Source of the DNA: Clostridiales bacterium
GTDB taxonomy: Bacteria > Bacillota > Clostridia > Christensenellales > Borkfalkiaceae
Reading direction: 5' to 3'
Assembly (NCBI GenBank): GCA_015055655.1
Contig: SVHW01000004.1
Span: 43,420-107,419, forward strand
Length of the DNA: 64,000 bases
Part shown: one piece after another, positions 48,903 to 63,822 of the stretch
Numbering within the stretch: the stretch's first letter is position 1
How the letters are laid out: every line of letters starts with the position of its first letter
The notes under the pieces: model-generated
What the model was told of the DNA's origin: nothing
The model's input: only the letters and a program-made list of their open reading frames with translations
Databases searched by the model: none
Position numbers and translations under genes: made by a program

Positions 48903-50408
48903 TTAATAGGGCAATTCTTCGTCTTCTATGCCTTGCAAATCCCCTTTACGCATAGGCGGTTCGGGGGGAATATAATCGTCTTCGGGCGCAACGTATTCTT
49001 GGTCCTCTTCCTCGTATTCTTGCGGGGCGTGGGAATACGCGGGCGGTTCTTCTTCCCGATTTTGTTCGTCCACGTCCACGAATTTCGTGCATTCGCCGAT
49101 GAATTTCAAAGATACTCTGCCTTGCGCGCCGTTTCTATGCTTTGCCAAAATCAATTCCGCCGCGCCTCTTACCACTTTGCCCGTTTCAATCTCTTCGCTG
49201 GTTGCCGTCGCCTCGGGACGATTGATGAACATTACGATATCCGCGTCTTGTTCGATAGCGCCCGATTCACGAAGGTCGGAAAGCGTAGGTTCTTTCGACT
49301 GAATACGACGAAGCTGGGAAAGCGCCACGACGGGCACGCTTAATTCCTTTGCCATAATCTTTAAATCACGCGTGATGGACGCGACTTCTTGTTGTCTGTT
49401 TTCTGCGCCTGCCGTACGGGAATCTCCGCTGGACATAAGCTGGATATAGTCTATCATTACCAAATCTAAACTGCCCACCGTCGATTTTAAACGACGGCAT
49501 TTCGAAATGATTTCCCCAGGCGTTACGCGCGAAGAATCGTCAATAAAAATATTGCTCTTCTTCAATTTATCTGCGGCTACCATCAATTTTTTCCACTCTT
49601 TCGCGCTCAATTTACCAGCCAACGCGTTTGCCATGCTCACGTTTGCATACGAGCATATCAATCTTTGCACGATTTCCCTTCTCGGCATTTCCAGCGAGAA
49701 CACGGCGCACGTTTTACCAGCGCGCAAAGCCGCGTGTTCGACGAGGTTCATCGCGAGCGACGTTTTACCCATACCGGGACGGGCGGCAAGGACGATTAAC
49801 GCGCCTGCCTGCAAACCGTTGGTCATTCTATCCAAATGCTTAAAGCCCGTAGGTACGCCTTTGAACGAATCGGGGTCCGTTTGCAACATCTCGAATTTAT
49901 GCAAAACTTCCCCGATGATATCCCCTTCTTCCATCCCTACCAGCGCAGAGGATTCCGTTTCACGGGAAATATCGTAAACCATTTTTTCCGCATACGAAAG
50001 CGCCGTCTTTTCGTCGGTGGACGACGTGGACGTTTCGATGATTTTTCTCGCCGCGCGAATCAGCTTTCTATTGACGCTGTCACGAATAACGATGTCGTAA
50101 TACGATTTATAGTTTGCCGCGCTGGGCGTGATTTGAGAAAGTTCGGTAAGATACGCGATACCGCCCGCTTTATCCAAGTTTCCTTCGCTATCCAAAAAAT
50201 CGGATACCGTAACGAGGTCCACTGGTTTTCGCGCCGCGAATACTTTGCGCATTGCGCGTATAATAAACTTGTGCGATTCTTGATAAAAATCCTCTTCCGT
50301 CACCTTTTCAACGAGTTCGGCGGTGATATCGTTATCCATAAGGAAACAGCCCAAAAGCGCCATCTCCGCATCGCGGTTATAAGGCATTGTGGTTACGTTG
50401 GTTGCCAT
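48903..50408 (-). CDS. dnaB: Replicative DNA helicase
   Basis: Hexameric 5'-3' helicase of the replisome, 501 residues. An N-terminal DnaB-N domain (NRDAEMALLGCFLMDNDI) precedes a RecA-like core with Walker A ARPGMGKTSLAMN, Walker B MIDYIQLM and ALSQLRRIQSKEPTLSDLRESGAIEQDAD (quoted by parts; SGAIEQDADIVMF). After the core there is an acidic, Pro/Tyr-rich tail of about 55 residues, longer than usual. It sits between pepF and sua5. The DnaD-like protein at 62 kb could act with it at loading. Confidence 0.96.
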   Translation of the reverse strand: MATNVTTMPYNRDAEMALLGCFLMDNDITAELVEKVTEEDFYQESHKFIIRAMRKVFAARKPVDLVTVSDFLDSEGNLDKAGGIAYLTELSQITPSAANYKSYYDIVIRDSVNRKLIRAARKIIETSTSSTDEKTALSYAEKMVYDISRETESSALVGMEEGDIIGEVLHKFEMLQTDPDSFKGVPTGFKHLDRMTNGLQAGALIVLAARPGMGKTSLAMNLVEHAALRAGKTCAVFSLEMPRREIVQRLICSYANVSMANALAGKLSAKEWKKLMVAADKLKKSNIFIDDSSRVTPGEIISKCRRLKSTVGSLDLVMIDYIQLMSSGDSRTAGAENRQQEVASITRDLKIMAKELSVPVVALSQLRRIQSKEPTLSDLRESGAIEQDADIVMFINRPEATATSEEIETGKVVRGAAELILAKHRNGAQGRVSLKFIGECTKFVDVDEQNREEEPPAYSHAPQEYEEEDQEYVAPEDDYIPPEPPMRKGDLQGIEDEELPY

Positions 50409-61938: not shown

Positions 61939-62053
61939 GAAAAGTGCAAGCTATCGGCAAAAAATTTCTTAATTTTAACAAAGCTTTTTTCCTTTTTTCA
62001 CTACGTGAAAGGTTTTGTTTATCACTCTCTACAAAAGTTGCGGGAGGCGCAAA

Positions 62054-63784
62054 ATGGCGTTTTGTTCTTTTTCCAAAGACAACGACGGGAATTCCTTCGT
62101 TACCCTGGAAAACAAGTTCATCACTAAATATTTACCCGAAGCTGACGGGTTTGCCGTAAAGGTCTATCTTTACGGCTTGTATTTGTGTAAAAACGGCAAC
62201 GACGATTTCTCCTTAAACGCTATGGCTGAAGTGTTGAAAACTTCTCCTGATAAAATCGTGGAGGCGTTTGATTTTTGGGAAGATTACGATTTGGTGGATA
62301 TCATCTCTAAATCCCCTTTCACCGTGCAATATTTGCCCGTGAAATCTGCCTTGGGACGCCCTAAAAAAGTGCACTATGAACAGTACGCCGACTTTAATAA
62401 GGAACTGCAAAGAAAATTGCAAACGGTGGGGAAATTCGTGTCCGCCGGCGATTACCGCAAATATATGCGATTCTTGGAAGAAAATCCTATCCAGCCGCAA
62501 GCGCTCCTCCTTATCGTGGAATACTGCATCAACAAACAAGGAGAAACTATCTCCCCTTCGTATATATTCAATAAGGCTAAAAAATTGCTGAAAAACGGCT
62601 GCTCTACTTATGAACAAGTGGAAAAAGAACTCTCTTCCTTTAACGCTAACGAAGGGGCTTTGGTTGCCGTCTTCGCCGCGCTCGGCGGATACCAAAAACA
62701 ACCGGACGAGGGAGATTATTCGCTCTATCGAAAGTGGACGGAAACGCTCGGTTTTTCAAAAGACGCCGTCCTTGCCGCTGCCAAGCATTGTAAAAAAGGC
62801 AACGCAACTGCCTTGGATTTTCTCTTGGAAGATTTGTACGAAAAAGGCAAAACCGACGCTGCCGCTTTGGAAAACTATCTCGTCGAACGGGAAACTTTAT
62901 CCAATTGGACCTTCCGCATCGCAAGAAAATTGGGCGTGAAAGTCAGCAATCCAGATACTTATATCGACGAGTACGTGGAAAAATGGTTTACCTACGGTTA
63001 TGAAGACGCTTCCCTGCTGGACGTGGCGTTATATTGCTTGAAAACGGACAGGGGCAGCTTTGATTGTATGCATACCGTCGTTGAAAAATTGTTTGCCGCC
63101 GGCATTGTGGCACAGGAAGACGTAAAAGCATTTTTGAAAGAGCGAACGAACGAGTGGAAGCTGTTTGAAAAAATTAGGGAAATTTGCGGAAACGTACGCA
63201 AGAGCACTATGAACGTGTCTATGATACGGACTTGGAAAGATTGGACGTTTAACGACGAGATGATTTTGGCGGCGGCTACGCGCAGCGCCGGTAGCGCAAA
63301 CCCTATCCCTTATATGAACAAAATACTCGCCGAATGGAAAAAGGAAAATATCTTCTCCATAAAGGATATCCCCCAAAACGGGGCGAGTTTTGCCGCTGCA
63401 AATAACGAAAAAACGGCTGTATCCCCTACCGTGCAAGCAATTAACGCAAAGGCGGATAGAGAAAGACATTATGCCTTGCTTCGGGAAAAAGCCGTCGTCA
63501 ACGCTGATAAGATGATAGCGAAGGCAAATAAAAACACTCTGTTTAAAGACGTTTCCGCCAAACTTGCCTCTATGGAAATTACCCTTGCCAAAGCGGAGGT
63601 TTTTGAGCCGAGCAAGTTGCCCACGTTGCTGGAAGAAAAGAAACGATTGTGGGAAAAACGAAAAGCAATTTTAGCGGAAATGGGCATCCGTGAAGAAGAA
63701 TTGTTGCCGCAATATACTTGCAAAAAATGCAACGATACCGGCTTTTTGCCAAATGGAAAATCCTGTGATTGTTATCATAAATAA
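62054..63784 (+). CDS. DnaD-repeat replication protein with DnaC/DnaI-like zinc motif
   Basis: A 576-residue protein. The N-terminal 100 residues resemble a DnaD winged-helix domain (SLNAMAEVLKTSPDKIVEAFDFWEDY). Three DnaD/DnaB_2-like helical repeats follow, centred near FSKDAVLAAAKHC, YEDASLLDVALYC and FNDEMILAAATR...PYMNKILAEWKKENI. The last 90 residues change style: a coiled segment and YTCKKCNDTG...CDCYH, the CxxCxDTG-CxC zinc motif of DnaC/DnaI helicase loaders, with no ATPase after it. GGGAGG six bases before MAFCSFS sets the start 13 codons inside the ORF. Likely primosomal, acting with DnaB; the fusion is unusual. Confidence 0.82.
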   Translation: MAFCSFSKDNDGNSFVTLENKFITKYLPEADGFAVKVYLYGLYLCKNGNDDFSLNAMAEVLKTSPDKIVEAFDFWEDYDLVDIISKSPFTVQYLPVKSALGRPKKVHYEQYADFNKELQRKLQTVGKFVSAGDYRKYMRFLEENPIQPQALLLIVEYCINKQGETISPSYIFNKAKKLLKNGCSTYEQVEKELSSFNANEGALVAVFAALGGYQKQPDEGDYSLYRKWTETLGFSKDAVLAAAKHCKKGNATALDFLLEDLYEKGKTDAAALENYLVERETLSNWTFRIARKLGVKVSNPDTYIDEYVEKWFTYGYEDASLLDVALYCLKTDRGSFDCMHTVVEKLFAAGIVAQEDVKAFLKERTNEWKLFEKIREICGNVRKSTMNVSMIRTWKDWTFNDEMILAAATRSAGSANPIPYMNKILAEWKKENIFSIKDIPQNGASFAAANNEKTAVSPTVQAINAKADRERHYALLREKAVVNADKMIAKANKNTLFKDVSAKLASMEITLAKAEVFEPSKLPTLLEEKKRLWEKRKAILAEMGIREEELLPQYTCKKCNDTGFLPNGKSCDCYHK

Positions 63785-63790
63785 AAACGA

Positions 63791-63822
63791 GAAAGCGTTC
63801 CTAAACGGAGCGCTTCTTTTTT
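63791..63822 (+). terminator. Terminator of the DnaD-like gene
   Basis: AAGCGTTCC pairs with GGAGCGCTT (9 bases, one G-T pair) around a 5-base loop, followed by CTTTTTT. It begins 8 bases after the stop codon. Confidence 0.9.

Follow-up and report, generated by a model that had tools for sequence, protein, structure and literature searches.

Here we describe a gene of 576 codons, running from an ATG at 62054 to a stop codon ending at 63784 within the window (the whole 64 kb stretch of DNA that was analysed), in which a DnaD-type replication protein is joined in one frame to what homology indicates is the N-terminal domain of a DnaC/DnaI helicase loader. The source is a gut bacterium (genome 96.7% complete), and the fusion is also found in many of its relatives. 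Features of the gene and of its presumed client are given below by coordinates and strand, with the basis of each assignment in parentheses.

62042..62047, +, GGGAGG, ribosome-binding-like, 6 nt ahead of the ATG (sequence)
62054..63784, +, whole fused gene: DnaD, DnaC/DnaI N-domain and zinc knuckle, without AAA+, 576 aa (ORF, Pfam, NCBIfam; fused form in 66/121 family genomes)
62054..62353, +, winged-helix-like N-terminal region, residues 1-100 (AlphaFold model, with helices and two strands)
62375..62680, +, DnaD-type helical repeat 1, residues 108-209 (best Pfam DnaB_2 stretch, 123-192; model)
62708..62932, +, DnaD-type helical repeat 2, residues 219-293 (model; DnaB_2 gives three stretches overall)
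62951..63187, +, DnaD-type helical repeat 3, residues 300-378 (model)
63206..63343, +, fourth repeat, partial, residues 385-430 (TIGR01446 DnaD_dom, 384-439; model)
63344..63424, +, flexible linker, residues 431-457, with low pLDDT at 443-456 (model; fast-evolving, raised pN)
63425..63682, +, loader N-domain made up of three long helices, residues 458-543, presumed to bind the helicase (NF005304 match; model pLDDT 95.5)
63719..63772, +, zinc knuckle CKKCNDTGFLPNGKSCDC, residues 556-573 (its four Cys do not vary across 51-52 loader domains)
63793..63815, +, hairpin resembling a terminator, with a T run behind it (sequence)
48903..50408, -, replicative helicase dnaB, 501 aa, presumed client (DnaB_C E 1.5e-93; ORF)

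Domain make-up and conservation of the fused protein

The three DnaD-like repeats proposed in an earlier note made from the sequence alone were recovered as three stretches of Pfam DnaB_2 (PF07261, DnaD-type; E 9e-20), and AlphaFold modelling refined this picture to three full repeats and one partial helical repeat behind a winged-helix-like N-terminal region. The model of the whole protein scored 85.2, with a disordered linker (443-456) separating the DnaD repeats from the loader domain, which was itself modelled as three long helices and a small knuckle with a mean pLDDT of 95.5. At the C-terminus, residues 471-575 matched positions 11-119 of 330 in NCBIfam NF005304 (DnaC-type 'ATP-binding protein') with an E value of 5e-13, far under the family's whole-protein cut-off, as is expected for a loader N-domain without its ATPase. 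Both the helices and the four-cysteine zinc knuckle of the loader are present, and the CxxC...CxC pattern occurs only once in the six frames of the window, at 63719. The AAA+ ATPase (Walker A/B) is absent: the match breaks off at profile position 119, where the AAA+ domain would be expected to start, and the reading frame ends there with the terminator-like hairpin next. The C-terminal CxxCxDTG...CxC loader motif, and a terminator in place of the ATPase, had both been described correctly in the earlier note.

Neither a sequence search of the PDB with the loader-domain profile nor Foldseek searches with either model gave a significant match, DnaD entries being weak hits only; identification of the loader domain therefore rests on its homology to dnaC genes. 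On this basis the C-terminus is a DnaC/DnaI loader N-domain carried on a DnaD scaffold.

Six orthologues from an independent collection (56-80% identity) have the full length in common and stop at the same point, and no ATPase gene was found downstream in these six loci. All four zinc cysteines were invariant in 51-52 related loader domains, as was, in 52 of them, the Asp that they enclose, and pN was far under pS in the loader part, which is therefore a maintained protein; the linker is loose, with raised pN. A frameshift, a concern already voiced in the earlier note, or a truncation artefact was rejected, given that the same end recurs in many independent assemblies. That the data are mostly metagenome-assembled genomes (MAGs) lends some room to an assembly or annotation artefact, or to a decaying pseudogene reading through into a dnaC remnant, but a single end point across many independent assemblies and genera, invariant zinc cysteines, low pN relative to pS, and orthologues in an independent collection make any such explanation exceedingly improbable.

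Distribution of the fusion and its relatives

The distribution of the fusion was surveyed in 121 genomes of the family (genera labelled g1-g18) and in an order-wide sample (families labelled f), both consisting mainly of MAGs. In the family sample, 66 genomes carry the fused form, three have a G39P-family gene, and about 41 have a split pair, the remainder being without a readable locus; the same protein end thus recurs in 66/121 sampled genomes, a larger observation than the single locus of the earlier note. As a single frame of about 560-620 aa, the fused form is the sole state in g1, g3, g4, g6, g9, g10, and g14, and is found in most genomes of g7. A split pair, consisting of dnaD (about 480 aa) adjoining a full dnaC (about 310 aa), is found in g2, g5, g11, g12, g13, g16, g17, and g18, and also in g8 except for one fused genome, G098, which has 7% contamination. 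In sister genera dnaD and full dnaC are adjacent or overlapping, and the motif at the end of the fused protein equals the N-domain of this neighbouring loader, so that it is not a general feature of DnaD proteins. When fused tails were aligned with dnaC N-domains from closely related genomes, z was 26 and 23 for comparisons inside one genus and 12 for the f32 pair, which shares a family.

Fused and split states also coexist within other families of the order. In f28, G190 and G239 are fused and their congeners split, while in f3, G153 is fused and G228 and G277 are split; overall, at least five families show loss of the ATPase. On a tree built from the DnaD part, nine changes of ATPase presence are required, seven of them forced by well-supported branches, although this tree was made quickly, contains a few long branches, and by itself cannot tell gain from loss; the split state is the widespread one. 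In f16, G153 (f3), and G265 and G151 (f32), the loader helices are kept and the tail ends at about the start of the zinc knuckle. Given that the knuckle is lost while the helices stay in these reduced forms, the helices are the part longest kept by selection.

Several individual loci deserve separate mention. L118-L124 and L167 are DnaD fusions with loader helices only, the zinc knuckle being lost at about its boundary. Two independent f28 fusions (L114 and L115) end in short acidic tails (IQSIDEVQL and VMKIEEVEV) that look like the usual C-terminus of DnaD in split congeners, as though the loader domain had been placed ahead of the old DnaD tail. L026 (MT835484.1), deposited as an unverified 'Bacteriophage sp.', looks like a bacterial chromosome scaffold, with an unfused dnaD-dnaC pair and metabolic genes.

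Three g7 genomes (G007, G082, and G090) encode a DnaD without the loader domain and also lack DnaC. In each of them an ORF that scores above the curated cut-off for PF11417 (the G39P family) either overlaps dnaD at its end or directly adjoins it:

L081, 2089-2688, G39P-family gene directly after dnaD
L082, 832-1434, G39P-family gene directly after dnaD
L083, 3716-4303, G39P-family gene directly after dnaD

Among the 121 genomes PF11417 is found in exactly the three without a loader domain (3/3) and in 0/118 others; the source genome has no PF11417 match. The chance of this coincidence under random placement is about 3e-6, although the three genomes form one clade and may represent one event. 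The family is that of gp39, the helicase loader of phage SPP1 (PMC6316719), and the chromosomal gene behind dnaD is apparently a domesticated phage loader.

The same module also occurs on mobile DNA. Genomes of g1, g4, g9, and g10 encode extra proteins of about 340-400 aa in which a loader-domain tail with a zinc knuckle ends at the same place, without ATPase, behind mutually unrelated heads (Lin1244_N phage initiator, winged-helix or phage-O-like, and DUF6291):

L069-L080 and L128, phage or mobile-element replication proteins with a loader-domain tail (genomes of g1, g4, g9, and g10; phage contig IMGVR_UViG_3300029305_006387)

One of these proteins lies on the IMG/VR phage contig, with genes for single-strand binding and recombination as neighbours, and is the one phage locus recovered by a viral-contig scan with a narrower alignment. 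The 14 genomes with mobile copies all belong to fused genera (about 14/70 vs 0/41, Fisher test p 0.002), in a comparison of related genomes using a search profile derived from g1 and biased towards that genus.

Probable helicase loading without a recognised loader ATPase

The earlier note had read the protein as a loader reorganised into a DnaD scaffold that recruits either a separate ATPase or DnaB. The reorganised loader is borne out by its N-domain, and of the two proposed partners it is DnaB, recruited directly, that is supported, the design being suited to this; the separate partner ATPase found no support. Searches of the source genome covering two families (loader profile and IstB) returned no separate DnaC loader ATPase, the best hits being known ATPases, namely DnaA (beside recF), ClpC, RuvB, ClpX, PhoH, ComM, Lon, and FtsH. 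First-look searches of this kind may miss a loader ATPase that has diverged too far for the profiles. DciA (PF05258; DUF721/DciA domain) had no match in the source genome and was absent in 37/37 genomes tested, and DnaB helicase was present in 30/30 genomes tested.

It follows a general pattern to assume that the fused N-domain works with an AAA+ protein in trans, such as DnaA or an unrecognised loader, since every other known dnaC/dnaI system uses an AAA+ domain and DnaA, which has one, is present. Set against this are the repeated loss of the ATPase part without any recognised substitute and the fact that, apart from DnaA and housekeeping ATPases, the source genome showed no DnaC/IstB-type ATPase. 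Extra DnaC-like AAA+ genes do occur in three fused genomes (one product of 278 aa encoded close to an integrase, another resembling it at the end of a contig, and an IstB next to IstA), but these are of the prophage DnaC-like or IS21 IstB kind, as named from sequence rather than by family search. We therefore regard a partner ATPase as unlikely.

The docking-helix region of DnaB was alike in fused and split genomes, in a comparison whose filter missed 14/30 helicases. In two f16 helicases (L200 and L201), from genomes in which the loader is most reduced, the conserved docking-helix Trp is Phe, a possible case of co-evolution with the loader.

We hold with considerable confidence that the fused protein acts as a DnaD-tethered, one-piece helicase recruiter and loader that is independent of ATP, and we infer helicase binding, ring opening, and release, as well as the order of evolutionary steps, along the following lines. 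The DnaD part would bind single-stranded DNA at the opened origin, and probably DnaA as well, as judged from the DnaD family (PMC13326638), and the C-terminal DnaC/DnaI N-domain would dock on the C-terminal face of the DnaB hexamer. With the two joined by a flexible linker, the helicase could be brought straight to the melted origin without an AAA+ loader ATPase, the DNA-binding role of which may have been taken over by single-strand binding of DnaD. Because a loader without an ATPase needs an outside release trigger, we propose that the helicase is released by ATP binding or translocation of DnaB itself, or by primase. In B. subtilis, where the tail of DnaD is a binder of single-stranded DNA, recruitment proceeds in the order DnaA, DnaD, DnaB (co-loader), DnaI, and helicase (PMC13326638). 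With the fusion this chain would become shorter, origin-bound DnaD holding the helicase directly. The fused gene presumably arose when adjoining dnaD and dnaC were joined by loss of the dnaD stop codon (or a small frame shift) and the ATPase part was lost. In favour of this reading we count the homology of the C-terminus to the loader N-domain, the adjoining dnaD and dnaC of sister genera, the lack of a recognised loader ATPase and of DciA where DnaB helicase is present, the repeated loss of the ATPase, the retention of the helices in reduced forms, and, as two natural tests independent of each other, the G39P replacement and the mobile copies.

Published work on related loaders is in part consistent with such a mechanism. 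In the DnaB-DnaI structure the helicase is contacted mainly through the N-domains (about 1,197 vs 548 square angstroms; PMC3791466). DciA, DnaC, and lambda P have one docking module on DnaB in common, and DnaI is predicted to use the same one (PMC9912922), while lambda P acts as a DnaB loader with no binding or hydrolysis of ATP (PMC6391071). As a counterpoint, the ATPase cycle of E. coli DnaC is tied to efficient loading (PMC8213410).

A different role for the fused domain would be to hold or inhibit DnaB near DnaD, with loading left to the helicase itself or to PriA-type restart proteins. Some DnaB-family helicases can self-load, and G39P-family proteins are also named helicase inhibitors (Pfam name), both of which speak for this role. 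However, the module derives from a loader gene adjoining dnaD in sister genera, it is under strong constraint, and where it is missing another loader family replaces it; a mere tether or regulator is accordingly quite improbable. Returning to ATP-independent loading, we judge it reasonably probable that the AAA+ domain of the cellular loader was lost many times in one order of Clostridia, that the DnaD-tethered N-domain (in some lineages its helices only) is a complete ATP-independent chromosomal loader, and that phages and other elements in such hosts rely on this solution too. This suggests that bacteria can initiate chromosome replication with no loader ATPase.

Comparison with known loaders

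Surveys assign to bacteria either an AAA+ loader (DnaC/DnaI, which once acquired is found in every species of a lineage, Clostridia included) or DciA, with few exceptions (PMC5109545), and we found no report of a DnaD-loader fusion in the open literature. The fusion would represent a third state, in which an AAA+ loader is cut to its presumed helicase-binding part, fused to DnaD, and reached repeatedly. It makes testable a long-standing question, namely what the loader ATPase is for and whether a helicase-binding domain tethered to an origin protein suffices, with the series of full loader, domain plus zinc, helices only, and G39P replacement providing a natural deletion experiment.

The fused protein shares with the DnaC/DnaI loader (NF005304; B. 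subtilis DnaI) the N-domain helices and the CxxCxDTG..CxC knuckle, and dnaC lies beside dnaD in sister genera; it differs in having no AAA+ ATPase domain, and no loader ATPase was found elsewhere in the genome. With the DnaD / B. subtilis DnaB primosomal family (PF07261) it shares the DnaD-type repeats and winged-helix-like start, and it is orthologous to dnaD of the sister genera; whereas in B. subtilis the end of DnaD is the part that contacts ssDNA and the co-loader DnaB (PMC13326638), that of the fused protein carries a covalent loader domain. DciA (PF05258), the loader of most bacteria, likewise has no AAA+ domain, but is unrelated to the fused module and had no match in any genome tested. 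SPP1 G39P and phage lambda P are small, ATPase-free loaders that recruit a DnaB-family helicase; they are phage proteins separate from the initiator and unrelated in sequence to the fused module, so that the likeness is one of mode of work only, and in three relatives a G39P homologue stands in for the loader module.
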